64,000 nt of DNA, taken from the NCBI RefSeq assembly GCF_039555335.1, contig NC_092628.1:95987782-96051781 (forward strand), in the 5' to 3' direction. Shown here piece after piece: positions 7,885 through 64,000 of the stretch. A program made the translations under genes and the position numbers. Position 1 is the stretch's first letter; the number at the start of each line of letters is the position of its first letter. The stretch is from Amphiura filiformis (Eukaryota; Echinodermata; Ophiuroidea; Amphilepidida; Amphiuridae). The notes under the pieces were generated by a model, which saw only the letters and a program-made list of their open reading frames with translations, made no database searches and was not told the origin of the DNA.

Positions 7885-7885
7885 A

Positions 7886-8302: not shown

Positions 8303-8585
8303 TTTGGTAATTAGATGTTCATCTCTAATAGCAATAACAGATCCATGTATCATGGTATATCTTCAATTATAGTGAAATTATATTTATTCAATATGATATC
8401 AGCGACTGTTTAGCCTGGGCTTTTTAGACTTGGGGAAAAAACATATATCAAAGAGTGATTTCAAACAGCTTTAGAAAAAAGAAAAAGTTGATAGAACATT
8501 TACGGTACAAATCCAGCAATCTGATTGTGTCAGGTAATTGAAACAGACATCAGTCATTTAATTTGGTTAACTTTTGACATTAATT

Positions 8586-8770
8586 GGGCTATTCCATTTG
8601 TAATCCATAAACCCTGTATGGAAGACATGACCTTAATCTCCTACAAAGGGGGTGTAAATTTCAAGTGTAGTCATCCATTCAGGTAACCCCATTTGAAATT
8701 CACGCTCCCTGTGTGGAAGATTAAGGTCATGTCTTCCATAGGGGTGTATGGATTTCAACTGGAATAGCAC
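8586..8770. mobile_element. Palindromic MITE, family 'GGGCTATTCCA', copy 1
   Basis: About 185 bp with near-perfect inverted arms; the left arm starts GGGCTATTCCA and contains GGAAGACATGACCTTAATCT. The right arm is its inverse complement and ends in GGAATAGCAC. Three related copies occur at 18,301-18,483, 24,853-25,036 and 59,013-59,187. No coding sequence. Confidence 0.85.
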
Positions 8771-9088
8771 ATTTGCAAAGACAGTAAACACTCTCCTGCT
8801 TGATACTAGTCCGATGAGTAGGACCTTTTTTTCCAAGTTACCAGACTATACTCAGCTTAGATCACTATCTCATATGGCGCAAGAAAGGCAAATCGCAAAA
8901 GTCCAGAGTATAGTTGGTAACTAAGAAAACAAACAGGTCCTACTCGTCAGACTACTCTATACATCTAAAATAAAATAAATAAAAATGTACACCACTGTCT
9001 GTCTCTCTCTTAACAGTGGCTGACTGGACTGACAGCCACTTCCCCCTACTTTACCCTATCAAATACAGATTTGGGTATCAGGTGAAAG

Positions 9089-33800: not shown

Positions 33801-36800
33801 AATTCCAGTGCAGATATGTATAATGAGGTACTTTAAAATAAGCCTTTAACTTTGAGAAACTAAATTTATCAATACCTGGAATCACAAATTGTTTGCATTG
33901 ACCTCATTGATTTATGATCAAACAGCCACAAGCCCCAAATGTGCAATATGATTTACATGGTGGTAAACAACTTAACACTACACCCATGATTGATTCACAC
34001 ACAGATTTAGTCATTGGTGCATTGGATCTGATAACATTCAACCCATTCTCTGTAAGCTACACTGGTAGCCTGTGTAGAAGCGAAAACTAAATTCAAGTTT
34101 CTATTCTACTAATGGTATACAAATCCTACAATGGACTTGCATCTGCTTACTACATTGATGACCTGCTGACTGCATAATCCCAGCACACACACTAAGGTCA
34201 AGCACACAAGGATTGCTACAAACCCCTACTGCAGCTCGTAAATCAAGAACAACTTATGTAAATAGGACCTTTTCTATTGCAACACCAATTGCAAGAGAAT
34301 GGAATAGCATCAGACAATTGCTAAATTTACTTTATTATTGTTATTACTCACTCCAGAACTGCCAGTAGTAAACATCTGGAGATCATCAAGCACATCAAAT
34401 GAGGTTTGGAAGGATGTGTCTTTTGCTCTTGTCATGAAGGTGTTGGAAAAATCTATACAAACAGCACCAGCACTGCAGTGACAATAAGAAGAACAAGAAT
34501 AAAACCTTATTTGAAATAAACATGAACAATTTTCCTTCAATTACAATATTCACATTCTCTACTGTGAACCCATTTGAATTTTTGTTTTTTCGATGAACAT
34601 TATGTAATTTATACACATACATCCAGTTTATGGCTATGATGGTAAAATATACCAATCCGATGATAGAAACATGTATTTGGCAATATCACAAGCTTTTATG
34701 GTACAAACCAGGGATGTAAAGGGGCAACATATCCATTTCCTGAAAATCCATCTGGTCCTTGAACAGGTGGCTGAGGGCTTGCGTGGGGTACTGAACATTT
34801 AGGGGGTTTGTCCGAAGAATAGGCTGCAGGGTATCACACCCCTCCTAAAAAAGTTTTTTGGCTCTTTTTATGACAAATTGTGATGTGATTAAGCAAAATG
34901 AGTCGGATGTCAGGAATATTGATTTTGAGATATAGCTAATAATAGTATTCAACTTCCTTTGTATTTTATTTTTCTGAACAACAATAAAATGGCCATATCT
35001 CTGGAAGCGTACATCAAATTATGATAGGGTTTTCAGCAAAATAAAGCTCAAAGATTGGCTCATGTAATAAAATTAAAAATTGAATTTTAGTTTTGATCGA
35101 CATCAGACTCATTTTGCTTGATCGCATCACAATTATCATCACCCAATTCCGCAAATGCACATTTTTTTTACATTTCTGAATTCCTTTTTAGCCAAATTTC
35201 CGGAATTCTGGTAATTTCTGGAAGATTTGCATTCCTGGTACAAACCATTTTTCAAGATGGTACACTACCATGTCACAAATATACAGTAATCATTTATTTT
35301 TAGACTCATCTACAGACTCTGATCATTTGATGCACACAAGTAGATGCACTAAATTATAATTCTGTTCAACTGGACTTATGGGCTATGGTATCATGTCATA
35401 TCCATGATGCATCATCAGGCCTACTGATCTTGAATTGGCTCTGTATTCTTGACCTGTGACGTCACGGCGGTAGAAGTGACGTCATATTGGAGTCGTCAAG
35501 GAATTTTCATGATGGTTGGTTCATAACACTTGGACAAGTTGTATTGTAGTCCCCCTCCGCGATTCAAAGTTGGCTCCTCCCTGCGAACATATATTGCTTC
35601 TTTCATACCACCTATGTTCTTTGAAGTTGTGATTGGCTGCTTTGAAGTGTGTGTATACCGAGGAATCAATAAGCCCTGTACGTTGAACTGGGGCGATAAT
35701 GTTGTTGGCATATTCGCTTGTGGAGAGGCTGTCTTGTCTCTCCTATGTAGTAGTCCACACAGTCTGAATCCTGGCAAATGATCATATAAACAATATTGCT
35801 TTGTTTGCGTTGAGGAATCTTGTCCTTGGGGTGGACAACTTCTGTCTCAGAGTGTTACACGGTTTTAATGAGACTGGGATCTGGTGTTGTCCAATGATCC
35901 TCTTTAACTTCTCAGAGACATCCGAGACATAAGGGATGGTGATACGTAACTTAAGAGTGCTCGTAGAGGTGGTGGAAGCTTGAATAAATTATGATGGAGT
36001 CTTTTATGCGGTTTAAAGGCTTTTTGGAACGTCCAGTCCTTGTATCGGCAAGTACTTTGTATCCGCAAGTACCTAGGAAAATTCCTGAACGACTCCAGTG
36101 TGATGTCACTTCTACCACTGTGACGTCACAGGTCAAGAATACAGAGCCAATTCAAGATCAGTAGGCCTAATGATGCGTCATGGATAAGATGTGATACCGT
36201 AGCCATCTAAAACAATAAGTCCAGTTGAACAGAATTACCGGTTCATTAGTTTACTTACCATAACACAGCTAATGAGGATGCCAGGCAAACACTAAGACAG
36301 ATCTGTTTGCAGCATAAACTAGAGTTTTCTTGTTCACGTTTACCTCCACAGTTATCACAGCAACGACAACAAAAGAAGATGAGAGCAATCCATGGCAACA
36401 GGAGGAAGAACAGGATACCAATGATGAGGCAGATGATGATGCCTATAAAGCTCTCCATGCCCTAGTATGAAATGTAAAAAATGTTCAGGAAGATTAATTA
36501 AAGGTGGATAACCTGGTTGACAACCTCATCCCCCCACTTTATCCCATCAAAATGCAGATTTTGGTATCAGGTGAAAGCTCATATTTTTCTCATTAACATA
36601 CTGAAATTAGGTGTTCCAAATCGGTATATTTCCGGAGAAATCATCAAAAAACTGTTGAATTAGTCTCAATTTTGTGGAATACCACGTTTGAGACTAATTC
36701 AACAGTTTTTTGATCATATCTTCGGAAATACACCAATTTGGAACTCCTAATTTCAATATGTTAATGAGAAAAATAAGATCTCTCATTTGATATTTATTAC

Positions 36801-37914
36801 ATGACCATGATGATTATCATTAATAAAAACACTGTAGACTATCAAAATCACGCTGTATAAAATGTCAGTAATTCCATAAGGAATTAGTCACATTTACAAA
36901 GAACATTTCCACTTCAGGCTTTAGCAGATAAAAGCACCCAGTCAGCATAATAATGAAGTCTGAAATAAGCAATGAGATTAGACCCAAAGAGCAACTTAAA
37001 ATTGCCCTGTGTGTAATGGTAAATCCAAAATTTAGGTTTGTCGCTCATGGATGGCAAATACAGCATACATCCGACTTTTATCTGCTAAAGCCTGAAGTGG
37101 AATAATAATTAGCATCTTTATGCTTGGGTATTACAAAGTTTGCGCATGTTGCAATTAATATGCATTTTTAGCACAATGTGTTACACATAGAATGCAAACA
37201 ACCACACTTCAAATCCAAGTTTGCCAGGTACATATGAAATATTCTGAACATACACTATTTGCTCTCCATGCACGACATGCAAACATGGTGAAGTCGGTAC
37301 TCTTTGGTTCTACCTCAATGGAAATAACTTACCAAAAATATCTCCTCTATGACATCTGGCTCTTGCTCTCCTTTTATCATTTCAATCAAGTGCACAGCAT
37401 AATCTATAAAGTAAAAACATCACCATACCTCTCCATAAGAATTTATAAACTCGAAAATAAAAATGACAATGTTGTATGTGTTGTTATTGCTGTATTTTTT
37501 TATTGTGTAGGCCTATATTTTTTTGGTTTTTTTTAGTATTGCAACTCATGATGTTGTGGAAGGGAACATAGGATATGTGGCCGAAATAAATGCATCCTAT
37601 GATATCCTAGAATAAGTCATGGATTTTTACAATTATGAGTAAAATGGGCAAAACAAGAAAAAAAATCTTCTAAGCTTACCTATTGGAAATCCCTGTGGCT
37701 GTACAATATCCACCCAACCACTTGCCATATTTGCCAGTGTTGCCGGTCTGTTTCCATCCGTCTTGTATAGATCTGGTTCCACAACAAATGATCCAAGCGA
37801 AGGAAGAGGGTCCCAAGTAATTGACCCATTAGGACTCTTGGATGGCACCCCCTGACATGTTTGGTAAGATACCACACACAGGAGTAAAGACAGTGATAGA
37901 GATGTCACTTTCAT
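11807..37914 (-). CDS. Prominin-like five-pass membrane protein, copy B (complete, 21 coding exons)
   Basis: Exons: 37914-37680, 37403-37333, 36461-36259, 34472-34352, 26798-26732, 25827-25732, 25355-25171, 24286-24215, 24037-23897, 23034-22958, 22336-22187, 21660-21537, 20289-20116, 19127-18963, 17714-17643, 16894-16808, 15931-15755, 14995-14906, 13140-12858, 12332-12240, 11844-11807. All have AG/GT borders and every phase joins, giving 2,721 nt, 906 residues plus stop (human PROM1 is 865). Signal peptide about 1-22; helix 1 about 107-134 with CCRCC; helix 2 about 152-176; loop 1; helices 3 and 4 about 424-452 and 465-500; loop 2 with a prominin-like LTFxxxLEDCEQN segment; helix 5 about 773-795 with the family signature LIFAVKLAKY; a cytoplasmic tail of about 110 residues ending in PPPSYEEAV. 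Family role: shaping cholesterol-rich membrane protrusions. The exon 16/17 join is the least certain, since an upstream acceptor near 15,962 would be out of phase. Confidence 0.93.
12802..12830. repeat. Poly(A) run on the plus strand
   Basis: An uninterrupted run of 29 A, 28 bp from the donor of prominin exon 19. Length is likely polymorphic. Confidence 0.9.
12858..14995 (-). CDS. Prominin copy B exons 18-19 (end of loop 2, helix 5, start of tail)
   Basis: Exon 18 (14995-14906) encodes FSDEFGRCHPIRAIYDAAVN then VVCHYDLDSL, with the two cysteines of the vertebrate loop end. Exon 19 (13140-12858, 283 nt) encodes NTVWFSLGWCTVWMIISLIF then AVKLAKYLRIM, the fifth helix with its conserved AVKLAKY juncture. 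A Tyr- and Asp-rich cytoplasmic tail follows (QACQDYYDYQHDDQEM). The intron between them holds a hAT-like element and an RT fragment. Confidence 0.93.
13211..13828. mobile_element. 618-bp hAT-like non-autonomous element with 8-bp target duplication
   Basis: Ends CAGTGGCGTAACT and AGTTACGCCACTG are exact inverted repeats, flanked by GTCCTTTG on both sides (13203-13210 and 13829-13836). GGGGCACCC-type blocks occur near both ends in inverted arrangement. No transposase. It lies in the intron between prominin exons 18 and 19. Confidence 0.88.
13935..14208 (+). mobile_element. Reverse-transcriptase fragment between 53-bp direct repeats
   Basis: From about 13,988 to 14,148 the plus strand reads VPIFKSGDKNNVNNYRPISV, LPIISKIIERTVHHQLYDYL and on to QSGFRSN, the N-terminal RT palm/finger segment of a CR1/Jockey-like LINE. 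Identical 53-bp sequences (13935-13987 and 14149-14201, beginning CAATCAGTGAAATGGG) flank it. Both ends of the LINE are missing. Confidence 0.8.
14761..14810. repeat. GAT/GAC trinucleotide microsatellite
   Basis: About 50 bp of GATGAT passing into GACGAT units, in the intron downstream of prominin exon 18. Confidence 0.95.
15440..15640. repeat. Fragment of an interspersed element with CAGTGGCATAGCC end
   Basis: On the minus strand near 15,620-15,590 the sequence reads CAGTGGCATAGCCAGGATTT followed by a G-rich run, a common terminus of hAT-like elements. The other end was not found. Confidence 0.4.
15755..15931 (-). CDS. Prominin copy B exon 17
   Basis: 177 nt, phase 0 to 0. Encodes ALIPLLDRDVNETSKAGLVV and, later, VEDYIDVIIGYLDQFIDVAI, resembling the vertebrate GYFEHYLQWIEFSISE segment before helix 5. 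The acceptor at 15932 was chosen because it keeps frame. A stronger-looking acceptor near 15,962 would add SLTHHIQ-like residues but needs a different upstream phase, so a small exon could be missing here. Confidence 0.78.
16518..16750. mobile_element. TTAA-flanked MITE, family 'TTAAAGYCATAATGTA', copy 1
   Basis: Begins TTAAAGCCATAATGTATGAT and ends with the near inverse (ATCATACATTATGGATTTAA). TTAA at both ends is the piggyBac-type target. It shares CACCTAAATGGAATCAGCCA with copies at 62,536-62,912 and 63,740 to the right edge; a shorter piece lies at 60,228-60,375. Confidence 0.75.
16808..17714 (-). CDS. Prominin copy B exons 15-16
   Basis: Exon 15 (17714-17643, 72 nt) encodes LQEDLLTDDLSAYSIELDTA then ADNN. 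Exon 16 (16894-16808, 87 nt) encodes PDVATELRQAAYDMQDIQQS then VVLPTEHSM, resembling the vertebrate [22 protein letters not shown] segment. Both are phase 0 with GTAAG donors. A TTAA-flanked MITE (16,518-16,750) ends just downstream of exon 16. Confidence 0.88.
17920..18150. repeat. Cluster of GTAAGATTTT words
   Basis: The word GTAAGATTTT or a close variant occurs about nine times on the plus strand, with one inverted copy (AAAATCTTAC) at the left. ACCAAAAT / ATTTTGGT also pair. Likely a small repetitive element in the intron between prominin exons 14 and 15. Confidence 0.6.
18301..18483. mobile_element. Palindromic MITE, family 'GGGCTATTCCA', copy 2
   Basis: Contains GGAAGACATGACCCTAATCT on the left and its inverted partner on the right, ending CTGGAATAGCCCA. 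The outer left end is eroded. Intron of prominin copy B. Confidence 0.8.
18963..19127 (-). CDS. Prominin copy B exon 14
   Basis: 165 nt, phase 0 to 0, with strong acceptor and GTAAGT donor. Encodes LIPELRNQTAKLIDEIDIGD, VDLSDLVPDNLGPLLQYSVD and onward, an amphipathic ectodomain segment. A partial duplicate lies 180 bp upstream at 19,307-19,399. Confidence 0.87.
19307..19399 (-). other. Duplicate of prominin exon 14: candidate alternative exon or exon relic
   Basis: 93 nt open in phase 0 to 0, encoding LDEIDIGDVYFREFIPDNLG then PLLQYSADSPG. Roughly 80% identical by eye to the middle of exon 14. It is preceded by a very strong polypyrimidine tract and CAG, and followed by GTATAT. Inclusion would add 31 residues in frame. 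It may be a cassette exon or a decaying duplicate. Confidence 0.6.
19500..19655. repeat. Short inverted repeat
   Basis: CTACTCTGAAGTACAAAGTA near 19,503 pairs imperfectly with ACTTTGTGCTTCAGAGTGGA near 19,628. Weak MITE-like candidate upstream of exon 14. Confidence 0.4.
20116..20289 (-). CDS. Prominin copy B exon 13 (start of second extracellular loop)
   Basis: 174 nt, phase 0 to 0. Encodes GYWLGDLILGNSSIPLTFTS, then ILEDCEQNSTIYNTLQLEHI. The order W-x-L, LTF, DC, N-x-x-x-Y-x-TL-x-L corresponds closely to the vertebrate prominin loop 2. Two sequons (NSS, NST). Confidence 0.93.
20690..21440 (+). mobile_element. 5'-truncated CR1-like LINE (RT C-terminus and 3' end)
   Basis: The plus strand reads AAYASIRNIGR, then an open frame (20,812-21,288): LHGITKTKLHRLQRIQNIAA, HDLHWLPVEQRITFKIALFV and a final WNNLPFSVRSAKSLFSFKTN before a stop. 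This is the C-terminal end of CR1/L2-type LINE ORF2. The 3' UTR has a hairpin-like GCGCC...GGCGC segment and ends in an ATT microsatellite (21,421-21,440). It lies antisense in the intron between prominin exons 12 and 13. Confidence 0.88.
21537..22336 (-). CDS. Prominin copy B exons 11-12 (helices 3 and 4)
   Basis: Exon 11 (22336-22187, 150 nt) carries helix 3 (MLALSLACFFIFGVFAVGLI) and the short cytoplasmic loop with NCCGNF. Two donors are possible; only GTAAGT after 22187 keeps frame with exon 12. Exon 12 (21660-21537, 124 nt) carries helix 4 (VVLTFLLTPLLMLLTSTIFA) and the start of loop 2 with a conserved Cys. A 230-bp palindromic MITE begins 57 bp past the exon 11 donor side. Confidence 0.9.
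21901..22130. mobile_element. 230-bp palindromic MITE
   Basis: Arms of about 100 bp: TTGTTGCAAAACCCCTTACA at the left and its near inverse complement ending TTTTGCAACAAA at the right, around a short loop. It ends 57 bp from prominin exon 11. Confidence 0.8.
22958..24286 (-). CDS. Prominin copy B exons 8-10 (first extracellular loop, distal part)
   Basis: Exon 8 (24286-24215) encodes LPVLDDQISGSDTAIANISS; exon 9 (24037-23897) encodes GLEALDQIESDINSAAEEPI and onward, acidic and helical; exon 10 (23034-22958) encodes ILDTLDEYEVFMKGRLDDSN, like the prominin segment just before helix 3 (TLEEYDSY in vertebrates). Exon 10 ends in phase 2 with GTAATA. Confidence 0.85.
23610..23822. repeat. Inverted-repeat element, about 210 bp
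   Basis: TCTATAGTCTATATATCTAC with GAGTCACCGGCACTA on the left pairs with AGTGCCAGTGACTC and ATATACAGACTATAG on the right. MITE-like, in the intron between prominin exons 9 and 10. Confidence 0.6.
24435..24510 (+). repeat. Possible tRNA-derived SINE fragment
   Basis: Contains the B-box-like word GGTTTGAATCC within a short paired stem (GCCGGTTTGAATCCGGC), then a T-rich run. No convincing A box, so this is a weak call. Confidence 0.35.
24853..25036. mobile_element. Palindromic MITE, family 'GGGCTATTCCA', copy 3
   Basis: GGGATATTCCA at the left and AGAATAGCCCA at the right frame the family's GGAAGACATGAC arms. Intron between prominin exons 7 and 8. Confidence 0.82.
25171..26798 (-). CDS. Prominin copy B exons 5-7 (first extracellular loop, proximal part)
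   Basis: Exon 5 (26798-26732) encodes QLSHILEDEYEYVEDLALDD; exon 6 (25827-25732) encodes VGMLIAAPVEDYLLEEVQVQ and more; exon 7 (25355-25171) encodes a 62-residue stretch containing NDT, NES and NAT glycosylation sequons and the cysteine pair CAGC. The heptad-like Leu/Ile pattern fits the long helices of the prominin ectodomain. Phases 0-1, 1-1, 1-0. Copy A exons 5 and 6 match the first two. Confidence 0.87.
26530..26680 (+). repeat. Retroelement 3'-end fragment
   Basis: CCTGAAGAAGGGCTAGGCCC followed by GATACCGGTT resembles the sequence downstream of the GIY-YIG domain in Penelope-like or related elements. No coding part is visible. Confidence 0.35.
27090..27581 (+). pseudogene. LINE upstream ORF region
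   Basis: An open frame of 163 codons with a basic C-terminal part (KKRGKGRKSQKQQ). It contains FSRDYLLSFRTSPPGTELYI, which I take to be the region preceding the endonuclease in this LINE type. It ends where the endonuclease frame takes over, so a frameshift or an ORF1/ORF2 overlap separates them. Confidence 0.6.
27424..28533 (+). pseudogene. LINE apurinic/apyrimidinic-type endonuclease domain
   Basis: 369 codons. Motifs in order: LWNARSACNK, DVFVITETWL, GGIGIIYKS, ILVYRPP, LLLGDFNIH and a final SDHELI, the catalytic series of the exonuclease-endonuclease-phosphatase fold used by LINEs to nick target DNA. This is the best preserved part of the element. The frame breaks near 28,530, before the RT. 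Confidence 0.92.
28540..29730 (+). pseudogene. LINE reverse transcriptase, N-terminal and central part (frameshifted)
   Basis: Open pieces at 28,656-29,075, 29,163-29,477 and 29,389-29,730. They contain FRPVSNISYVSKLMEKV near 29,110, VVLLDLSAAFDAVDHAILLN, GIPQGSVVGPLFFVLY and the catalytic YADD within YHMYADDVQLYL near 29,600. At least two frameshifts. The coding match stops at the TTAA at 29,684; the last residues of the open frame belong to the inserted element. Confidence 0.9.
29684..32814. mobile_element. 3.1-kb TTAA-flanked (piggyBac-type) DNA element, no transposase seen
   Basis: The element is 29,688-32,810 with TTAA on both sides (29,684-29,687; 32,811-32,814). The left terminus is GGAGGCACACAGGATCACT; the right terminus inverted is GGTGGCACACAGGATCACT, 18 of 19 identical. 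Removing it with one TTAA rejoins the LINE RT in frame. The inside has no recognisable transposase: it holds a CATT microsatellite (30,421-30,461), many taggcctat words and a GC-rich, CpG-containing block (about 31,637-32,080). TTAA target plus short inverted ends suggests a non-autonomous piggyBac-superfamily element. Confidence 0.9.
30421..30461. repeat. ATTC tetranucleotide microsatellite
   Basis: About ten TCAT/ATTC units in a row, inside the TTAA-flanked element. Confidence 0.95.
32815..33574 (+). pseudogene. LINE reverse transcriptase, C-terminal part
   Basis: Continues the RT after the insertion: EISDWMTRNKLKLNSEKTEF, NLGVVFDQTMSMTGHV, LQSLQNRAARIVFRLDRR, LRELHWLPLESRIVFKLMLL and WNSLPIHIRQLPSIHRFKKS before TAA. 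Uninterrupted for about 253 codons, so this part is much better kept than the middle of the RT. Confidence 0.92.
34030..34320 (+). mobile_element. Degenerate C-terminal RT remnant of another CR1-like LINE
   Basis: Pieces such as LRSSTQGLLQTPTAARKSRT and TYVNRTFSIATPIAREWNSI are readable after frame changes and match the end of CR1-like ORF2. Both ends are eroded. It stops just before prominin exon 4. Confidence 0.6.
34352..34472 (-). CDS. Prominin copy B exon 4
   Basis: 121 nt, phase 2 to 0, acceptor CAG, donor GTGAGT. Encodes the end of helix 2 and the start of loop 1 (AGAVCIDFSNTFMTRAKDTS...). The intron that follows is about 7.5 kb and holds the nested LINE and TTAA element. Confidence 0.88.
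35357..36236 (-). mobile_element. Penelope-like remnant: GIY-YIG segment between inverted repeats
   Basis: On the minus strand, 35,945 down to 35,496, broken frames read TIPYVSDVSEKLKRIIG, DYYIGETRQPLHKRI and KEAIYVRREEPTLNRGGGLQ then YNLSKCY. This is the GIY-YIG endonuclease module at the C-terminus of Penelope-like elements. Arms of about 155 bp (35,357-35,508 and 36,076-36,236) are inverted copies containing GACCTGTGACGTCAC. At least three frameshifts. I saw no hammerhead ribozyme core in the arms. Confidence 0.72.
36259..36461 (-). CDS. Prominin copy B exon 3 (helix 1, CCRCCxxCGG, start of helix 2)
   Basis: 203 nt, phase 0 to 2. Residues about 103-170. Contains GILFFLLLPWIALIFFCCRC, the conserved first membrane helix and cysteine cluster shared by all prominins, then a short Lys/Arg/Glu-rich cytoplasmic loop and cysteine-rich helix 2. 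The donor GTAAGT at 36258 is only about 16 bp from the end of a Penelope-like inverted repeat (35,357-36,236). Confidence 0.95.
36540..36780. repeat. Long hairpin repeat (about 80-bp arms)
   Basis: TTTTTCTCATTAACATACTG to TTGAATTAGTCTCAA on the left is mirrored at 36,690-36,774 around a short loop. The left flank (GATTTTGGTATCAGGTGAAA) also occurs around 9,070, where another MITE has inserted into it. Confidence 0.85.
36909..37100. mobile_element. 192-bp MITE with 27-bp inverted ends
   Basis: Starts CCACTTCAGGCTTTAGCAGA and ends with the exact inverse complement. Non-coding; lies in the intron between prominin exons 2 and 3. Confidence 0.85.
37333..37403 (-). CDS. Prominin copy B exon 2
   Basis: 71 nt, phase 1 to 0, donor GTAAGT. 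Encodes DYAVHLIEMIKGEQEPDVIE then EIFL, the extracellular segment just before helix 1. Paralogous to copy A 4390-4469. Confidence 0.85.
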
Positions 37915-43304: not shown

Positions 43305-44705
43305 AGATCAGGAAGGTCTCTACTACCTTCATGATTGGATTTAATGTACAAAATAATGTTTTAAACTACTGGATGAATAATCTACACTTAAATCTGATAA
43401 AATACAACTTTTTAATATTTCCTCCAAAAAAAGTCATGTGGCTCAAAAAAAAAAGTTGAAATAAATTAGCGGGAAATATGACTCAGGAATGCGCAAATGT
43501 GAAATATTCTTATTATGTGTTCGCATTCGGTATGTTGTTGTGTGTAAACAAAACAAAGATTTGCAGTCAAAATGCCATCCAGATTTTCAAATTATTTTGG
43601 CGCAATAAAAGCACACATTTTGGATTCATTGGTGCCAAAAGGTGCAAATTAAGACCATGCACCAGATGAAAGCATGAAAGTCTTACTGTTTTAAAATATA
43701 AGGAGGTTTTGTGAATAATTTTGATATTTTTTACCTAAAAACATTGATTTCTCAGAGTTCATTTTTGGCAACATTGCACTCTTTTTGTGACCTGTTAAAT
43801 GCAAGCAAATGTTTTTTTTTTGTGCATTATCGTTTAGAGCACATCAAAGTCTGTGGAAGGTTTTCTCACGTTTTCAAAATATTTGTTTTAAACAAAAATA
43901 TACACCATCATATGCAATTTTTGGCTGATCAGATTGGCAAAATTGTTTTTTTCACATGTCTTTTTTCAATATTTCAAAAAACAAGGCGAATTTCCATAAA
44001 ATAAAAACTTTTCCTAATTTCACATCTCTGCTTTCTGAAAAGCTAACTGAATTTTTTTTACTCCGGCCTGATTTTTATGAATGTTGTTACGAACAATGTG
44101 GGCAAATAAATTGTATTTTTGTGATTTTTTCAAAAAATTTACATTTTGTTTAAATCTGACATTACCAAGGGATTTCTTGATTCGCTTCCATTCCAAAAAT
44201 GTATAGTTTTATGCACTTTGAACTTAAACTTCAGAAATAATGAAGTTGGAAAAGGTCCAAGTTTTCCCTTACTCTCCCCAAGGCCAAATATATATCAAAA
44301 TGAAAAGTTTTGGGTATCCACCCATGTGGCAGAAATGATATCCCTTATATCAACAAGCCTTAGGGTCTTCTTTATAGAGCCTATACCATTCCTTTTCTGT
44401 GTGAGTTTAATTTGTCTCAATATTTGATTGCAAATACTACCTTAAGATTGAACATTAACCGTTTGACTTAACTCTATGCTAAAACTTTCTAAGAATGTAG
44501 ATTCAGATGTTTAAATACTGACTTTTTTTAGCATTAGCAAATCCTATGCAAATTAATTGTTACACCTACAATTCAAGAAATTTCTCTTTTTGAATTTGTT
44601 TTTGAGTAAAAACTTTCACTTGCACATCATCAATTGCAGTATACCATATATTATGATCAAAATGAATTAAATCTCCTGTATCTTGTGGCAAGAACTCCCA
44701 TGGCA
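43305..44705. other. Intergenic sequence, no gene seen
   Basis: Short open frames at 43,478-43,669, 43,711-44,004 and 44,146-44,427 are AT-rich with no recognisable family; I regard them as chance. Confidence 0.5.
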
Positions 44706-45539
44706 ATTAGTACAGGAGCAGCAACCTCAAAAAAATGACTTCGTTCATCCCCCACTACATACAAGGTTTGACACCATAGGTAGTTAGTATGGACCCTCTA
44801 GATCACTGCTAGGTAGGTAGTGGACTCAAATTGTGGTATCACTTTTTTTTTACAGGTCATTTTATGTATGGACGATAATCGCATAAAATCACAAAAATAG
44901 GACAAAATTAAGGGGTAGGGGAGATATAAACTCCAAGAACTCAACTTTTACTCATTATTTTGAATTCATTTTGGTATCAATATGTAGCTAAATGATTTTC
45001 CTAACTTTCTAGTATTATTTTTAAACAAAAACAGGTTTCATTTGAGCATATTTGGAAGTATATAGTCCATAAATGAGTGGTAATCTGATTTTTAAAACCA
45101 TATGTGTAAAGTTTGACATTGGCCTCAAATCTCACAACTATAGCACTTTATATTTTCAAAATTGATTCAGTTTCCATTTTTATTTTTTTATTTAAATTTT
45201 AATGTTTTATTTTGTTTTTGATGGTAAGGATATCAAGGGGAACATTATTGTATCGGTTCCAATCATTATAATACGTATGAGTTCGTTGGGGTGTCTGTGG
45301 GACGAGGTGTGTGTGGGTGCTGGGTGTACATAGGGTATGTGTGGGGGTGAGGGGCTGAATGTGTGTGTACATGTCTTAATATGCCACTACACTGCACCAA
45401 CTTCCATTTACAAAATCCGTTAAGTTTCCATTGATGTAATATTTTGAATATTTATGTGTAGGACGTGAGTAACCACCGGGAAAAAGACAAAAAAATGTTT
45501 AAAAAAAACCAACAAAAACTGATGTTGATTTCCCTCGTA

Positions 45540-47850
45540 TAAGAGCATAACATAGAAAAATATTAAGGGGTAGGGGAAAATAAATCATCAGAACTCAATA
45601 TTTACTCATGATATTGACTTCATCTTGGTATTAATTCTATTTAATTCAATTCAATATGTATATCTAATTGATTGTTCTAACTTTTTAGTATTATTTTAAA
45701 GCAAAGCGACCATTAGTTGTCAGGTAGATACACAGAAACTGTGAGAAAAGGGCACGTTTTCTATGTCTAACAGCGTAAATATGACAATATGAAGGGGTAG
45801 GGGAAATATAAACTGCCATAACTCAACTTTTACTCATGAAAATGAATTCATCTTGGTATCAAAATGTATCTAAGTGATTGTTCTAACTTTCTAGTATCAT
45901 TTTAAAGCAAAGCAACCATTAGTTGTCAGACAGATATACAGAAACTGTGAGGAAAAGGTCAATTTTCTATGTCTAACAGCGTGAAGATGACAATATTACG
46001 GGGTAGGTGAAATGTAAACTGTCATAACTCAACTTTTACTCATGAAATTGAATTCATCTTGGTATCAAAATGTATCCAAGTTATTGGTCTAGCTTTCTAG
46101 TATTATTTTAAAGCAAAGCGACCATTATTTGTCAGGCAGATATACAGAAACTGTGAGGAAAAGGTACATTTCCTATGTCTAACAGCGTAAAATGACAACA
46201 TTAAGGGGTAGGGGAAATTTGTAACTGCTATAACTCAACTTTTACTCATGAAAATGAATTCATCTTGGTATCAAAATGTATCTAAGTGATTGTTCTAACT
46301 TTCTAGTATTATTTTAAAGCAAAGCGACCATTATTTGTCAGGTAGATACACAGTATTTGTGAGGAAAAGGTAACTATTCTATGTCTAACAGCATAAATAA
46401 ATATGACAATATTAAGGGGTAGGGAAATATAAACTGCCACAACTCAACTTTTACTCATGAAAATGAATTCATCTTGGTATCAAAATGTATTTAGGTGATT
46501 GTTCTAACTTTCTAGTATTATTTCAAAGCAAAGCGATCATTAGTTGTCAGGTAGATACACAGTAACTGTGAGGAAAAGGTAAATATTCTATGTCTAACAG
46601 CTTAAATGTGACAATATTAAGGGGTAGAGGACATATAAACTGCCATAACTCAACATTTACTCATGAGAATGAATTCATCTTGGTATCAAAATGTATCTAA
46701 TTGGTTGTTCTAACTTTCTAGTATTATTTCAAAGCAAAGCGATCATTAGTTGTCAGGAAGATACACAGTAACTGTGAGGAAAAGGTAAATATTCTATGTC
46801 TAACAGCTTAAATGTGACAATATTAAGGGGTAGAGGACATATAAACTGCCATAACTCAACATTTACTCATGAGAATGAATTCATCTTGGTATCAAAATGT
46901 ATCTAATTGGTTGTTCAAACTTTCTAGTATTATTATAAAGCAAAGCAACCATTATTTGTCAGGCAGATATACAGAAACTGTGAGGAAAAGGTCAATTTTC
47001 TATGTCTAACAGCGTAAAATGACAATATTAAGGGGTAGGGGAAATTTATAACTGCCATAACTCAACTTTTACTCATGAAAATGAATTCATCTTGGTATCA
47101 AAATGTATCTAATTGGTTGTTCTAACTTTCTAGTATTATTATAAAGCAAAGCAACCATTATTTGTCAGGCAGATATACAGAAACTGTGAGGAAAGGTAAA
47201 TTTTCTATGTCTAACAGCGTAAAATGACAATATTAAGGGGTAGGGGAAATTTATAACTGCCATAACTCAACTTTTACTCATGAAAATGAATTCATCTTGG
47301 CATCAGAATGTATCTGATTGGCTGTTCTAACTTTCTATAAACAAAGCGATCATTAGTTGCCAGGTAGATACACAGAAACTGTCAGAAGGGACCGTTCACA
47401 AACACTTGTAAGGGGAGGGGCCTGATGCAAAAAAAATTTCATCATAAAAAATTTCGGGCCCCCCTTTACAGACCTCAAAATTTTAGGGTCCCTTTTGACA
47501 TGAAAATTATGGGTCAACCCCATAGAAAATCATATAAACTCAATTTTTCCAGGAAAATTTTTGGTCATTTTTTCAGCCCCCCCTTAGGAGGTACCAAAAA
47601 TTTCAGACCCCTTTTTGCATCAGCCCCCCTTACAACGGTCCCTAAATATGACAATATCAAGGGGTAGGGGGAATATAAACTCCCATAACTCAACTTTTAC
47701 TCGTGATAATGAATTCATCTAACGTTCTAGTATCATTAGTTGTTATGTAGATACAAAGGAAATGTGAGAAAAAACTTCCATGTGTAACAGTGTCAAATAT
47801 GGTAATATTTAAGGGTAGGGGAAATATTACCATAACTCAACTTTGGCTGC
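45540..47850 (+). repeat. Left arm array, ~206-bp tandem repeat
   Basis: CTATGTCTAACAGCGTAAA recurs at about 45761, 45967, 46173, 46379, 46588, 46794, 47000 and 47205. Each unit also has AAGGGGTAGGGGAAATATAA, AACTCAACTTTTACTCATGA and TTCATCTTGGTATCAAAATG. Two neighbouring units near 46,600-46,900 are almost identical, suggesting recent unequal exchange. A MITE interrupts the array at 47,386-47,643. Confidence 0.93.
47386..47643. mobile_element. ~257-bp MITE inserted in the left array
   Basis: Ends GGGACCGTT and AACGGTCCC are inverted repeats, followed inward by GTAAGGGG and CTGATGCAAAAA on both sides. The array resumes on the far side with AATATGACAATATCAAGGGG. Confidence 0.8.
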
Positions 47851-48150
47851 ATTAACTGTGAAGGGGAACACGGGAATACAAATCGTTGCACCAAAATTTG
47901 AATGTAGTATACGATTGAGGTTTCTTCGTTAATTGGTGCAATTGGACCATTTTTAAAATTTGACCTTTATTTATGATATTTTTGATATATTCGACGTTAT
48001 AACCCCTGAACTAAGCTTCAGAGAACTATGACAATTGTCTTCTTTTAAATTCTTAGCGATGAGAGGAACAATTTGAGATTACAACATTACAACATGATAG
48101 GATCATTTTTAGTATTGGCCCCATTATGACCTTCAACCCTCGTGGGAAAC
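47850..48150. other. Central spacer of the fold-back structure
   Basis: About 300 bp between the two arrays without the repeat unit and without an open frame of note. Confidence 0.6.
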
Positions 48151-51130
48151 TTAATTGCTTTTAAAATAATGCCAGAAAATGAGAACAATCAAATAGCTAC
48201 ATATTGATACCAAAATGGAATTCATTTTCGTCAGTGAAACTTGTGTTTTGGTGATTTGTATGTCCCCTTACCCCTTAATATTGTCATATTTTACGCTGTT
48301 AGACATTAAATATTAACATTTTCATACATTTTATGTCTATCTACCAGACAGCTAATGACTTAATTGCTTTTAAAATAATACTAGAAAGTTAGAACTATCA
48401 AATAGCTACATATTGATACCAAAAATAATTCATTTTCATCAGTAAAACTTGAGTTTGGGTGATTTGTATGTCCCCTTGCCCCTTAATATTGTCATATTTT
48501 ACGCTGTTAGACATTGAATATTAAAATTTCCATACATTTTATGTCTATCTATCAGACAGCTAATGACTTAATTGCTTTTAAAATAATACTAGAAGGTTAG
48601 AACTATCAAATAGCTACATATTGATACCAAAATGAATTCATTTTCATCAGTAAAACTTGAGTTTTGGTGATTTGTATGTCCCCTTACCCCTTAATATTGT
48701 CATATTTTACGCTGTTAGACATGGAATATCAACATTTTTCTCATATTGTATGTTTACCTACCTGACAACTAATGGTTTAATTGCTTTTAAAATAATGCCA
48801 GAAAATGAGAACAATCAAATAGCTACATATTGATACCAAAATGAATTCATTTTCATCAGTAAAACTTGAGTTTGGGTGGTTTGTATGTCCCCTTACCCCT
48901 TAATATTGTCATATTTTAAGCTGTTAGACATGGAATATCAACATTTTTCTCATATTGTATGTTTAACTACCTGACAACTAATGGTTTAATTGCTTTTAAA
49001 ATAATGCCAGAAAATGAGAACAATCAAATAGCTACATATTGATACCAAAATGAATTAATTTTAATCAGTAAAACTTGAGTTTGGGTGATTTGTATGTCCC
49101 CTTACCCCTTAATATTGTCATATTTTACGCTGTTAGACATGGAATATCAACATTTTCCTCATATTGTATGTTTAACTACCTGACAACTAATGGTTTAATT
49201 GCTTTTAAAATAATGCCAGAAAATGAGAACAATCAAATAGCTACATATTGATACCAAAATGAAATCATTTTCATCAGTAAAACTTGAGTTTGGGTGGTTT
49301 GTATGTCCCCTTACCCCTTAATATTGTCATATTTTACGCCGTTAGACATGGAATATCAACATTTTTCTCATATTGTATGTTTAACTACCTGACAACTAAT
49401 GGTTTAATTGCTTTTAAAATAATGCCAGAAAATGAGAACAATCAAATAGCTACATATTGATACCAAAATGAATTAATTTTAATCAGTAAAACTTGAGTTC
49501 GGGTGATTTGTATGTCCCCTTACCCCTTAATATTGTCATATTTTACGCTGTTAGACATGGAATATCAACATTTTTCTCATATTGTATGTTTAACTACCTG
49601 ACAACTAATGGTTTAATTGCTTTTAAAATAATGCCAGAAAATGAGAACAATCAAATAGCTACATATTGATACCAAAATGAATTAATTTTAATCAGTAAAA
49701 CTTGAGTTTGGGTGATTTGGATGTCCTCGTACCCCTTAATATTGTCATATTTTACGCTGTTAGACATGGAATATCAACATTTTCCTCATATTGTATGTTT
49801 AACTACCTGACAACTAATGGTTTAATTGCTTTTAAAATAATGCCAGAAAATGAGAACAATCAAATAGCTACATATTGATACCATTGATACCAAAATGAAT
49901 TCATTTTCATCAGTAAAACTTGAGTTTGGGTGGTTTGTATGTCCCTTACCCCTTAATATTGTCATATTTTACGCTGTTAGACATGGAATATCAACATTTT
50001 TCTCATATTGCATGTTTAACTACCTGACAACTAATGGTTTAATTGCTTTTAAAATACTGCCAGAAAATGAGAACAATCAAATAGCTACATATTGATAACA
50101 AAATGAATTCATTTTCATCAGTAAAACTTGAGTTTGGGTGGTTTGTATGTCCCCTTACCCCTTAATATTGTCATATTTTACGCTGAACAGTTGTCAGGTA
50201 GTTAAACATACAATATGAGAAAAATGTTGATATTCTATGTCTAACAGCGTAAAATATGACAATATTAAAGGGTAAGGGGACATTCATACCTTACCCCTTA
50301 ATATTGTCATATTTTACGCTGTTAGACATGGAATATTAACATGTTCGTACATTTTATGTCTATCTACCTCACAACTAATGGTTTAATTGCTTTTAAATAA
50401 TACTAGAAAATGAGAACAATCAAATAGCTACATATTGATACCAAAATGAATTCATTTTCATCAGTAAAACTTGAGTTTTGGTGATTTGAATGTCCCCTAC
50501 ACCTTAATATTGTCATATTTTACGGTACTACACATGAAAAATTGACATTTTTAAAACATTTTATGTCTTTCCCGCTAACAATTAATGGTTATTTTGCTTT
50601 AAAAGATTACAACAACCAAATAGCTATAAATTAATGCCAAAATGAATGAATTATAATGAATAAATGTCGAGTTACGTTGGTTTGTACGTCCCCTAACCTT
50701 TAATATTGTCAAATTTTACGCTGTTACACATTGGAAAATTAACATTTTTATCATATTTTATGTCTATCTTATGGTTTTTCTGTTAAAAATAATACTGGAA
50801 AGTTAGAGCAATCAATTAGCTACATGTTGATACCAAAATGAATTCATTATTATGAGTAAAGGTTGAGTTATGGTGGTTTTTATTTCCCCTACCCTTAATA
50901 ATGCCATATTTGACATGGTTATACATAGAAAAGTAACCTTTTCTCACATTTTATGGCTATCTACCTGACAATTAATGTTTGCTTTGCTTTAAAATAATAC
51001 TAACACGTTTGAACAATCAATTAGCTACATATTAATTCCAAAATGAATTCATTATCATGAGTTGAAGTTGAGTAATGATGGTTTATATTTCCCCTACCCC
51101 TTAATATTGTTATATACACACGCTGCTACA
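48150..51130 (-). repeat. Right arm array, ~209-bp tandem repeat in inverse orientation
   Basis: TTACGCTGTTAGACAT recurs at about 48291, 48499, 48707, 48916, 49125, 49334, 49543, 49752, 49969 and 50178, mostly at 209-bp steps, then in more diverged units to about 51,130. It is the inverse complement of the left array (CCCCTTAATATTGTCATATT against AATATGACAATATTAAGGGG). Central units are nearly identical to one another; outer ones diverge. Confidence 0.93.
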
Positions 51131-52337
51131 TGTGGAAAAGTAACTATTTGTTTACATTTTCAGTCTATTTTCCTGACAAACAGCGGTTGATCTCACCCCA
51201 CACATATAAATATTCAAAATATTACATGAATGGCAACTTACCAAACAAATTTTGTTAATAGAACTTATATAGTTCAGCCGAGTGACATATTAAGACATGT
51301 AAAACACCCCAACCCTGAACCCTATACACACCCCAAGCACCCACCCCACATACCCAACCCCACCTACCCCAAACCCACACAACACAAACCAACATGCAAG
51401 CAAACATGCACATACATAAATATTTGAACCAGAACATCAAAGTTTGCCTAGATATGCTTGATATTAAAAACAAAATTAAAAAATGGAAACTTAATTAATT
51501 TTGAAAATAGAAATTGACACAATAGTGAAATTTGAAGCCAATGTCACAAAAACACCCACCCTACGCATTGTTCTGAAAAATCTGATTTTTCACTAGTGTA
51601 TGGACTGGCCACTTCAAATCATGATCAAATGAAACCTAGGTTTGCTTTCAAATAATACTAAGCAGTTAGAACAATCAATTAGCTACATATTCATACCAAA
51701 ATAAATTCATTATTATGAGTAAAGGTTGAGTTCTTGGAGTTTATATTTCCCCTACCCCTTAATTTTGTCCTATTTTGGTGATTTTATGCGATTATCGTCC
51801 ATACATAAAATGACCTGTAAAAAAAAAAGTGATACCACAATTTGAGTCCACTACCTACCTAGCAGTGATCTAGAGGGTCCATACTAACTACCTATGGTGT
51901 CAAACCTTGTATGTAGTGGGGGATGAACCAAGTCCTTATTTAGGCCCCCTGTGGGATCTTGCTCCTGGACTAAATGGACAAATGGTAGAAATAAACTGCC
52001 ACATTTACGCTGAACATAGTTATCTGAAAGCTGTATGCATTTGTCATAAACATACTTTGTATTTGTAGGTAAAACAGTAGTGTAATCATGAATATATTGT
52101 TTCTGCATAGCCAGTTCTTTAGTTACAATAGAAATAAACCAGTTAAACAATTAAATTAAATTACATTTGTGGATTTATAGTGCACGATACACACTCACAA
52201 GCCTGTGCACACTTAACATATTTTCGCTGAACACTGAGACACACCATTAAACAATTCAGTAGTGCAGGGCGATATATTCAAATATTGTATTCATCTATTG
52301 CTATGGTAGTTAATCCGATTATTAACCCTAACCCAAC

Positions 52338-58800: not shown

Positions 58801-60116
58801 TTCGTGTCCTCCATCCCCTTCCTCTTCCTCGTGGAGGTGGCTTGTCCTCATCTCTATGTGGACTGTGAACCTTAGACTTCTTCCAATCTTGGTTATCAAT
58901 TTTGTATTGTTTGCTATCTGGATCAATTTCCTCCTGACCTGTATCAGTCATTGTCCTACAAATAACAAAAAAGTAACATATCCTCTGATGTAAAACTGTT
59001 CTGGCTCACTATAGGCTGTTCCAATTGAAATCTATACACCCCCTATAGAAGACATGACCTTAATTTTCCACACAAGGAGTGTTAATTTCAAATGAAGTTA
59101 GTTACCTGAATAGGTGGCTCCATTTGAAATTCTTGCCTGGGTCATATCTCCCATAGAGGCTGCATGGATTTCAACTGGAATAGCCCAATGTCACCACATA
59201 TTTGTGGGACAAAGATTTGAAGAATGTTGTGAAAGAAGTACTCACAAGTTAAATAATAGAATTACCTTGGACCTACACTCAAATATTACAAAAATGACAT
59301 AATTATACTGACCAATATGAACTTTTCCACGGCCATGCGAAAGATGGATTTTTAATGTCACACAAAAGAAAAGATCTGCCAAATTTGCAACGGATCTGCT
59401 TCCCAACCTTCAGCGCATTCAACGCTACGATATGTCAATGACAGATACTGAGATAGACATTGACATTCATACACACAAAAATAAATATTTGCAAATTGCA
59501 ATTAAAACTCATGTTTTTGAACGATTCTGAACTTTATCAAATCTCACCAGTCCTCCAAGATTTTCCTGAAAATGCTGGTATAAAATATTTTATAAAATCC
59601 CTTTCCCTTGACGGATTTTAACGGGGTTTGAAACCACTTCCAGCATGGAAATCGTACATTCTCATTGTGTATTCAAGTAATTTTAGAAGCTATGCATTGT
59701 GGGTAATAATTCACACATAGTAAAGGTCACGATAAATTGAAGCTGAGAGTCGAATTTTCCGAATGCTGATTGGTTGCTTGTATCACTGTCAGTGATCTGT
59801 GCACGCACAGTACGGAATGATTTTTCCTATGGGTAAAATACACTGTGTACAGTATGTAAACTTTCCAAATTAGTCATACTCTCATCTCTCTCTCATCTCT
59901 GATAAAATCAGAGCGAGAGAGATAAAGTGCTGCCCTACCTGTACACACTGCATGCTTCCATTGTCAACTAACCTAAGGCGGGCGGGACAGACAACAGTTC
60001 TTCTGTCGTCCCCTTGCCCTATAGAGAAGCTGGCTAGTGCTGGGAAATCTTCCACTGCCTTGTGTATTAGAAAACGATGATGGCTGGTAACTGGTGGGAA
60101 CAACAGCACACTATCA
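52778..60116 (-). CDS. R3H and coiled-coil domain protein, R3HCC1/R3HCC1L family (5' exon missing)
   Basis: Eight exons: 60116-59973, 58955-58470, 57944-56066, 55529-55436, 54909-54828, 54572-54502, 53758-53522, 52833-52778; all phases join and give 1,016 residues from the first visible codon to TGA. Order: R3H domain (single-stranded nucleic-acid binding), charged coiled coil, two YVPxARR motifs, about 560 acidic low-complexity residues ending ...SWDALFDDKGESLKPEEE, then a C-terminal RRM-like region with GFDIKWVDDTHALAIFATPL, nearly identical to the vertebrate protein, and a basic helical end closing in DIWEGN. Vertebrate members are poorly characterised; an RNA-linked role is inference. The entering phase 2 at 60116 shows that at least one coding exon lies upstream, and I could not find it among the repeats to 64,000. 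Confidence 0.92.
53522..53758 (-). CDS. R3HCC1-like exon 7 (basic helical C-terminus)
   Basis: 237 nt, phase 1 to 1. Encodes AQDALGLMNPMFRTRPLALA, TRESKMKAKKSIEFLKPYKA and ARRLISGALGLRTKVTREQR and onward. The ARRLxxxALGxR and EFLxPxKxxPxT patterns are shared with vertebrate R3HCC1L. Confidence 0.9.
54502..55529 (-). CDS. R3HCC1-like exons 4-6 (RRM-like region)
   Basis: Exon 55529-55436 encodes LAEGIGKVKVSLKKPKHDYY and more; exon 54909-54828 encodes FEHVIEVYDFPADFKTPDLV MSFSDF; exon 54572-54502 encodes NKGFDIKWVDDTHALAIFAT. The beta-strand pattern (HVIEVYDFP, then FDIKWVDDTHALAIF) is that of a degenerate RRM. Donors are GTTAGT, GTAAGT and GTAAGT. Confidence 0.92.
55590..55860 (+). mobile_element. 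Penelope-like GIY-YIG 3' fragment
   Basis: The plus strand reads TNKQTRWIREALWIRKRGTQ then TINRDKGIYSLNHIYDPLL, the last part of a GIY-YIG endonuclease module. It is followed by TGAAGAAGTCACCCGACCTG and GATGACGAAAC, the usual 3'-flank style of these elements. Antisense in the intron between R3HCC1-like exons 3 and 4. Confidence 0.7.
56066..57944 (-). CDS. R3HCC1-like large exon: YVPxARR motifs and acidic low-complexity region
   Basis: 1,879 nt, phase 2 to 0. It opens KPRRAAQEVYVPRARRQAQQ then LYVPKARRQAE, two copies of a motif of which vertebrate R3HCC1L has one at its N-terminus. Then about 560 residues rich in Asp, Glu, Ser, Thr, Val and Asn, probably disordered, ending DSWDALFDDKGESLKPEEE, a conserved family landmark. 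Several large reading frames on the opposite strand are shadows of this exon. Confidence 0.9.
58470..58955 (-). CDS. R3HCC1-like exon: charged linker and coiled coil
   Basis: 486 nt, phase 2 to 2. Contains PPPRGRGRGWRTRTR (an RG-rich patch), two imperfect repeats around GNKPVDKDRGQSSLDNP and GNKQVDKDRSRGQRSSDHP, then a Glu/Arg-rich helix (ARRIEEETRKRIQEERRRED) likely to form a coiled coil. Confidence 0.88.
59013..59187. mobile_element. Palindromic MITE, family 'GGGCTATTCCA', copy 4
   Basis: GGCTGTTCCAATTGAAATCT at the left and CAACTGGAATAGCCCA at the right; inner arms contain AGAAGACATGACCTTAATTT. The most diverged of the four copies. Confidence 0.78.
59973..60116 (-). CDS. R3HCC1-like exon with the R3H domain
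   Basis: 144 nt, phase 2 to 2, acceptor TAG and donor GTTAGT. Encodes DSVLLFPPVTSHHRFLIHKA, VEDFPALASFSIGQGDDRRT and VVCPARL. The R-x3-H signature is RFLIH; LLFPP and RRTVVC are family hallmarks. Confidence 0.9.
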
Positions 60117-61868: not shown

Positions 61869-62538
61869 TAAGGGATCCAAAATGAGCGTTTATTATGCGT
61901 TTAGACAGTATTTTTTGTGGGACATGAGAGCACCTCAGACCTATCGAATTGCATTCTGAATACTGAAGCATGTCTTTCTGATATCAAATAATTTTCATTT
62001 TTTAAAATCACAATATAATACAAATTTTATGACAAATTATAAAAATTTGATATTTTTCAAATTTTGATATATAACAGTCCTCGAAGTTAATTATATAAAT
62101 CTAATGATATATTCTTAAAGTGTATGTAGCAGGGAGGAAAAGCCGACGGTCAATTGAAAATTTTGACCTTTCATATTGAAGATATGGATAATTTTTCCCA
62201 AAAAGACCTAATTTTTGTTGGTGTTTTGGGAAAAAAAATCCATATCTTCAATACGAAAGGTCAAAATTTTCAATTGATCATCGACTTTTCATCCCACCTA
62301 CATACACTTTAAGTATAAATCATCAGATTTATAAAGTTTACTTCAAGTACTGTTAAATATCAAAAATATCAATTTTAATGATTTGCCATAAAATGTGTAT
62401 TAAATTGCGAATTTCAAAAAATCAAAATTATTTGATATCAGAATGACATTCTTCGTATTCAGAATGCAATTTGATATGTCTGATGTGCTCTAATGTCCCA
62501 AAATAAATACTGTCCAAACGTTCATACCCCAGCCCTTA
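61869..62538. mobile_element. ~670-bp palindromic element
   Basis: Arms of about 310 bp: CGTTTATTATGCGTTTAGAC and TTTCTGATATCAAATAATTT on the left return inverted on the right (AAATTATTTGATATCAGAAT; ACTGTCCAAACGTTCATACC). The centre contains TATTGAAGATATGGAT / ATCCATATCTTCAATA. No coding sequence. Confidence 0.85.
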
Positions 62539-62912
62539 AAGTCATAATGTACGATCTTATAATATGAATTTGGTTAATTTTTTTCAAACCTGATTTTTTG
62601 GCATATTTGTAATGTTTACACATGTCACAACTTGCACCTAAATGGAATCAGCCAAATTTGTTGTGTTTGTAGGTAAACAGAGCAAAGTTAGACATAAAGT
62701 CATAATTCAAGAAATTATGACTTTATGTCCATATAAAGTTCTGCGTGTTAAGCGGCCAAAATAACAAGCAGTGTTTCTTTCACGTTACCTCGTTATTTCA
62801 GCTCAAAATGGACAGAAACCATTCCCGATCATTATTACTAGTATTATTTCAGCATTTTGAGTATATAATGACAAATTTAAAATTTGAAGGAAATCGTACA
62901 TTAAGCCTTTAA
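62536..62912. mobile_element. TTAA-flanked MITE, copy 2 (complete)
   Basis: TTAAAGTCATAATGTACGAT at the left and ATCGTACATTAAGCCTTTAA at the right. It has an internal 37-bp hairpin around ATAAAGTCATAATTCAAG (62,688-62,728). The first about 260 bp are nearly identical to the copy at the right window edge. It directly abuts the palindromic element to its left. Confidence 0.85.
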
Positions 62913-63739
62913 ATCAAGAGTACAAATGTATGGGCAAGTGGACTATGGAGAAGTCTATATGGGGTAGGCCCTACTGAGCATGCGCAAATCGTAAAAACGT
63001 GTAGAATAGAAACTCTGTGGTATCTCATATTCTCATATCGTGTAAATGGTATGCTTAGCCCGAGTCGCTCGGCCTACGTCAAACAAAATCACCATGCGTA
63101 GCTTTTGAAAAACGAGAGGATTCGCCATACTATCACAGCAATTTTTGACACAAAGATATAGGGATGATGGCGCTGTGTAGCGCTGGGCAGAATGGAATAG
63201 CAATTTTATTTGTTTTACCTCATTTGCTTCAAAATTTCATGATGGGGATATCATGATAATGATAATGACTAATGTTTGTTTGTTTGTTTAAACGGTCGCT
63301 CCGTGTGGAGACACGCTTGGCCGGGTCCTGATGGGACGATAATTTTGCCTTTTTGGACACTAAAATGCATTTGATCCTTAATTTTGTTTAATGTTTCAAC
63401 CAAGTCTTAAAATAGCAAGCACACTAACTTGAATAAGGTGGGTACCAATTTATATACCATTGTCGTTGACCAAATGTTGAAGAAATTTTTTGAATATCTG
63501 ACCTGCGCAACTCGTTAAGTGTGTATTTCCCATGACCATGTATACAAAATGGCGTATGCCAGTCATTAGAGTACCGTACACAGCGTATCGTAGGACTGGC
63601 GACGAGTCTAGACCAGTCCAGGCTCAAACAAAATGAGAAGTGAAAACTTTTAACAGTTTGTGGAAGAAAATAAACTTGTATCTATCATGTCTATTCAATA
63701 TTCTAGAAATCACACATAGCTGTCGCCATCCCGGGGCCC
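62913..63739. other. No gene seen
   Basis: Contains short open frames only (for example minus strand 63,424-63,627) without recognisable similarity. The missing first exon of the R3HCC1-like gene could lie here or beyond the window, but I could not identify it. Confidence 0.4.
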
Positions 63740-64000
63740 TTAAAGTCATAATGTACAATCTTATAATATGAATTTGGTTAATTTTTTCAAACCTGATTTT
63801 TTGGCATATTTGTAATGTTTACACATGTCACAACTTGCACCTAAATGGAATCAGCCAAATTTGTTGTGTTTGTAGGTAAACAGAGCAAAGTTCGACATAA
63901 AGTCATAATTCAAGAAATTATGACTTTATGTCCGCCCATAGAAGTTCTGCGTGTTAAACGGCCAAAATAACAAGCAGTGTTTCTTTCACGTTACCTCGTT
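63740..64000. mobile_element. TTAA-flanked MITE, copy 3 (cut by right edge)
   Basis: Starts TTAAAGTCATAATGTACAAT and follows the 62.5-kb copy with few differences for 260 bp, including the internal hairpin, until the window ends. Confidence 0.85.

Follow-up and report, generated by a model that had tools for sequence, protein, structure and literature searches.

A mirrored 7.27-kb unit in Amphiura filiformis is probably a non-autonomous fold-back transposon with separately homogenised tandem arrays in its arms

The 64-kb stretch of Amphiura filiformis DNA analysed here (the window) contains a mirrored unit of 7.27 kb (44707-51973), which is composed of two inverted arms around a centre of about 310 bp. 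Each arm consists of an outer flank of ~850 bp followed by a tandem array, with 206-bp units on the left and 209-bp units on the right, and the two arrays run in opposite orientation and meet at the centre (Table 1). We consider it likely that this unit is a non-autonomous fold-back DNA transposon that was moved in trans. The unit has the long inverted ends, built partly of tandem repeats, that characterize fold-back elements. The matched ends, the mirrored flanks, the presence of an array unit within the flanks and the small, geneless-looking centre all argue for an element of the fold-back type rather than a satellite block. The sequence-only reading of this DNA had already preferred a mobile fold-back over a plain satellite, and the anatomy agrees with it, while the mobility is what we infer.

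Table 1. Parts of the mirrored unit and the adjoining candidate target duplications (positions in the window).
Feature	Position	Strand	Remarks
Candidate left target duplication ATGGCAA	44700..44706	+	
Left terminus	44707..44735	+	TTAGTaCAGGAGCA, 13/14 against the right terminus, followed by poorly matching bases
Left outer flank, best conserved part	44736..44961	+	218/226 identical to the inverted right flank
Diverged array unit in left flank	44854..45102	+	83% to the left-array consensus over 219 aligned positions
Left inner flank with G-rich tract (about 45280-45360)	45031..45558	+	77-79% to the right flank, many gaps
Left tandem array	45559..47387	+	period 206 bp, 9 units, the last cut by the insert
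Nested insert, about 255 bp	47388..47642	+	ends GGGACCGTT...AACGGTCCC; takes the place of part of an array unit
Decayed remains of left-array units	47643..47840	+	
Centre, about 310 bp	47841..48150	.	no clear array or flank match; no domain recognised in the 2 ORFs scanned
Right inner tandem array	48151..50185	-	period 209 bp, two alternating unit types
Inverted patch in right array	50186..50290	+	95-96% to the seven middle right units, opposite orientation
Right outer diverged array units	50291..51108	-	periods of about 195-206 bp
Right outer flank with C-rich tract (about 51300-51390) and diverged array unit	51109..51940	-	mirrors the left flank
Right terminus	51941..51973	-	...TGCTCCTGgACTAA
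Candidate right target duplication ATGGACAA	51974..51981	+	one-base indel against the left copy

The fold-back structure that had been proposed for 44706-51975 is confirmed by the mirrored flanks and the inverted arrays, with the boundaries now refined to 44707-51973. The flanks, which had been described as inverted outer ends of several hundred bp, reach a global alignment score of 864 when one is inverted, compared to at most 103.5 in 60 random pairs from the window, and the mirrored G-rich and C-rich tracts noted before both lie inside the aligned flanks. The direct array on the left and its inverted counterpart on the right are likewise present, around a centre that is slightly larger than the 300 bp given earlier. 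Tandem Repeats Finder reports the left array at 45661-47337 (period 206, 8.1 copies), the right inner array at 48151-50185 (period 209, 9.7 copies) and the diverged right array at 50296-51168 (period 196, 4.4 copies). The GC skew is positive across the left arm and negative across the right arm, a change of sign that is expected of mirrored arms. The left array is interrupted by the nested insert, which has inverted ends and no evident target duplication and would be a later addition that did not belong to the original element. The earlier description did not include this insert, the inverted patch or the diverged array unit within each flank.

The outermost bases of the unit, TTAGTaCAGGAGCA on the left and the inverse of TTAGTcCAGGAGCA on the right, agree at 13 of 14 positions, and this match sits directly outside the best-conserved part of the flanks. 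When 400 random pairs of stretches of 75 bp were compared, only 2 contained a match of 13 bases anywhere. Just inside the termini (about 44707-44735), 24 of the 29 aligned bases match, with 12 gap columns, and the last 30 bp are less alike between the arms than the next 226 bp. This weighs against the transposon reading, since it is in these last 30 bp that a transposase should need the likeness most. The search for target duplications that had been suggested as a check gave a mixed result. An imperfect pair of 7-8 bp, ATGGCAA and ATGGACAA, adjoins both ends, but no exact direct repeat of at least 5 bp brackets the unit and there is no in-register duplication with up to one substitution at 44707/51973. 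A near match of this kind arises by chance in 0.6% of 50,000 random placements when the ends are fixed, and in 4.9% of 4,000 placements if the ends are allowed a shift of 4 bases. The pair is at most a hint of a target duplication. Since the last 30 bp and the target duplication are no longer exact, the present copy may be old or immobile now.

The two flanks align almost up to the first array unit, and for the inner flank by itself the score is 303.5, where 100 random pairs reach no more than 73.5. Going inward, the identity between the arms changes from 218/226 (44736-44961) to 57/69, 141/184 and 219/278, with many gaps. With sites treated as independent, the outer part differs from each of the two innermost parts at Fisher p values of 8e-10 and 9e-10. 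An inverted duplication of uniform age would not yield such uneven divergence, while ends that were kept alike over rounds of transposition would. Gene conversion between the outer ends could also keep them alike without transposition. Provided that mutations have accumulated evenly since insertion, the 3.5% divergence at the ends is an upper bound on the age of the present copy. The inner divergence would be older than this copy, and hence the source element would already have carried unlike inner arms while its ends were still alike. Like ends together with unlike inner arms are what selection under repeated transposition would give.

The array units record a separate history of the two arms. 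Mean identity within an arm is 90.2% for eight left units (excluding the flank unit 44904, the first array unit 45559 and the decayed unit 47653) and 93.8% for nine inner right units (excluding the four outer units, the flank unit 51766, the cut unit 48282 and the inverted patch), whereas the mean between the arms is 78.9%. In the right arm, seven units ending at 48907-50169 form a near-identical block (96-99%), and the four outer units are 74-83% alike among themselves. The units ending at 48698 and 48490, closer to the centre, are a separate subtype, 96% like each other and 87-89% like the seven-unit block. In the left arm, the outermost array unit shares 82-86% identity with each of the other eight. 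The earlier description of nearly identical inner and diverged outer units therefore fits the right arm, apart from the subtype of its two innermost units, and fits the left arm less well. Three linked sites divide the seven middle right units into two types, and the order of these units from outside to inside is A A B B A B A. The left unit 46819 is a mosaic, with a first part that is 100% identical to 46613 and a remainder that is 97-98% identical to 47024. Both the order of the A and B units and this mosaic are marks of unequal exchange or conversion. Thus, the homogenisation suggested by the sequence-only reading is supported by the identities, by the mosaic unit and by the tree described below, and it acts within each arm, not between the arms.

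A tree of 25 of the 27 pieces, leaving out the decayed unit and the inverted patch, unites 11 right units as a clade (100/98), groups the nine left units more weakly (89/89) and pairs the units inside the two flanks with each other (96/91). The units of an arm do not form a single clade in either case (2 changes each), as the two flank units group together and one of the outer right units is placed next to the left group. The pairing of the flank units means that the flank unit predates the arm-specific arrays. The array unit in both flanks is 83% identical to the left consensus over 178-219 aligned positions, with local scores of 198 and 199, whereas none of 200 random segments scored above 45. 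A weaker match (score 56) was found where the right flank borders the array, in or beside the stretch from its G-rich tract to the array, and local alignment gave no other clear match to the array unit elsewhere in the flanks. The occurrence of a diverged array unit in each flank makes it probable that the flank was the source of the arrays and that the two arms developed theirs independently. Across 21 full units the best-conserved parts lie around AATATTAAGGGGTAGGGG, ATTCATTTTGGTATCAATAT and TCCATGTCTAACAGCGTAAA, and a role of these parts as binding sites would be a guess.

A possible course of events can be proposed from these features. A transposase from a relative elsewhere would bind the matched outer ends and move the unit in a cut-and-paste manner. 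Duplication of a subterminal flank piece would have given rise to a tandem array, and each arm would then have expanded and homogenised its array separately, by unequal exchange or conversion. By analogy with Galileo and Tetris, the extra array units may have acted as additional binding sites for the transposase.

The window holds 54 ORFs of at least 90 amino acids, only one of which (47368-47667) lies inside the element, mostly within the nested insert. A Pfam search with 10 of the 34 ORFs of at least 45 amino acids that overlap 44700-51980 recognised no transposase. Two sub-threshold matches to Rhamnogal_lyase in array units (E 0.16 and 0.19) were taken as chance. Scans of the window for tRNAs and Rfam families returned 0 hits each. 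No other copy of the element was found by blastn (E 1e-3) in the window outside the interval, and exact patterns of outer flank and array unit gave 0 matches in viral_contigs and 0 in genome_contigs, collections that are mainly viral and prokaryotic and poor for a eukaryotic repeat.

Several superfamilies were considered for the element. A Helitron-type element with central arrays was set aside, as this unit has inverted arrays and its ends consist of long inverted repeats. The ends of the hAT superfamily read CAGG and so do those of this unit; hAT was set aside because there is no 8-bp duplication. At the boundaries scanned, no exact match of at least 5 bp lies outside CAGGAGC, nor does a match of 7-10 bp with a single mismatch. 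For Mutator, the most common home of fold-backs according to PMC4079207, target duplications of 8-11 bp are given in PMC6446971, and the candidate duplication here is imperfect and 7-8 bp long. No Mutator-related transposase domain was recognised in the 10 of 34 ORFs searched, which is expected of a non-autonomous copy and thus remains compatible with Mutator. For the P superfamily, to which Galileo belongs, the exact 7-mer target duplication is absent and no P-type transposase was recognised in the same 10 of 34 ORFs. Hence, neither target duplication nor transposase supports a choice of superfamily here, be it Mutator or another.

Three other explanations have to be weighed against the transposon. 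The unit might be a chimeric copy, with arms from two element copies that were joined by ectopic recombination, so that the site would be the breakpoint of an inversion or rearrangement. The inner arms indeed differ by about 21%, and the sequences that flank the ends match inexactly. PMC3573991 describes 12 Galileo copies in D. mojavensis with strongly diverged arms and unlike 7-bp flanks that were read as chimeric. However, the flanking sequences yield a candidate duplication that is alike at about 7 of 8 positions, and independent array growth in a single element accounts equally well for the difference between the arms. Moreover, the array-free parts of the flanks are diverged too and give no sign of two subfamilies, whose definition needs more copies. 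We therefore regard a chimera as unlikely. We give the same low probability to the more specific idea of a recombinant fold-back at a breakpoint, whose arms would be nurseries of 206- and 209-bp satellite families from one transposon flank.

It is quite unlikely, in our estimate, that the unit arose when a satellite block was duplicated in inverted orientation together with the sequence flanking it, and was never a transposon. Such an origin would suit the satellite-like arrays, the lack of recognised coding sequence and a window without a second copy, but three observations speak against it: the arms have diverged very unevenly, little at the outer ends and strongly further in, the ends terminate near matched 14-mers, and the array unit belongs to the flank. 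An assembly artefact, from a fold-back read or a mis-joined satellite, seems very improbable indeed: arrays are difficult to assemble and fold-back read artefacts are on record (PMC12870357), but a fold-back would make near-identical arms, and here the arms are too different, with flanks at 77-79% inward, periods of 206 against 209, 79% identity between arrays of different make-up, and 0 N in the whole window. The copy number within the near-identical right block could be misassembled.

Fold-back elements of the kind that we propose here are already described from flies and beetles. The comparisons with Tetris, Galileo and Rehavkus-1_TC were made by description only, and we claim a likeness of plan, not kinship. 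The TU elements of sea urchin have much shorter repeats, of about 15 bp. They are fold-back elements as well (Lieberman et al. 1983, as cited in PMC4079207). A close description is that of Tetris from Drosophila virilis and D. americana, a non-autonomous fold-back for which the authors suggest a Mutator affiliation. According to PMC4079207, Tetris has an outer flank of up to 866 bp, followed by AT-rich tandem repeats of about 220 bp and a non-coding middle; repeat numbers are unequal, and flank and repeat have 37 bp in common at about 80%. The order of the parts is alike in both elements and their sizes nearly so, and both have sequence that is common to flank and repeat. However, the common stretch is far longer here (178-219 aligned positions at 83%), the arrays exceed the 3-4 units named for one Tetris copy, no inner domain is defined and an exact 8-10 bp target duplication is absent.

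A similar plan is found in Galileo subfamily F of Drosophila mojavensis, a P superfamily element with direct repeats of about 210 bp inside its inverted ends (PMC3573991). Here too, the repeat number differs between the two ends of one copy and expansion takes place within each end, but there are two or three repeats instead of about nine. According to the same paper, most Galileo copies have 7-bp target duplications and transposase copies are known, and in one subfamily the repeats hold secondary transposase binding sites. Rehavkus-1_TC from Tribolium castaneum is a 9.5-kb element whose inverted termini contain short arrays of a satellite unit of 164 bp, mostly with five and eight monomers (PMC10218199). 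The Rehavkus group differs in its PHD-finger transposase and 9-bp target duplications (PMC6446971), neither of which is seen here. The Mutator-type elements Tm1 from root-knot nematodes and Muta1 from a mosquito likewise have composite inverted ends with internal repeats, but those of Muta1 are 12 bp long, and both elements have 8-10 bp target duplications and transposase-bearing members (PMC3169594 and PMC5225508).

The locus is of interest as a layered record of a transposon end turning into satellite DNA: a single flank unit, diverged early units and homogenised blocks are present twice, in mirror image. The principle is already in print for Tetris, whose authors propose such a path from transposon end to satellite, as well as a role of the extra repeats as binding sites (PMC4079207). 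If more copies exist, a comparison of their left and right arrays would test whether homogenisation is confined to the arms and whether units escape to free satellite.

The remainder of the window contains further repeats and traces of coding sequence. A reading of the window in terms of neighbouring genes was unproductive in Pfam and PDB searches. Among 10 gene- or LINE-like ORFs of the window, Pfam gave two families above the cut-off, both endonuclease and both in one ORF, and two weak matches. The ORF in question (27397-28530) is LINE-like and carries the endonuclease domain PF03372 (E 6e-14) together with PF14529, and a weak, sub-threshold reverse transcriptase match lies at 32783-33571. 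An exon-like ORF on the minus strand with a signal-peptide-like start occurs in two copies that are 85.5% alike (5053-5251 and 37672-37871); it gave no Pfam family at E 0.1, and the PDB matches of the second copy had E 0.6 or worse. A repeat of roughly 190 bp, with mutually inverted halves, is present in four copies (8582-8771, 18297-18486, 24850-25037 and 59011-59189) and resembles a hairpin-type miniature transposon. Tandem arrays occur at the start of the window (1-535, units of about 108 bp) and at 7884-8303, where a 42-bp AT-rich unit is found in ten near-perfect copies (98% matches). Two direct repeats are each 97% alike, one of 213 bp with copies 33 kb apart (3216-3428 and 36252-36464), and one of 266 columns with a short internal palindrome (62532-62794 and 63736-64000), the second copy of which runs to the end of the window.
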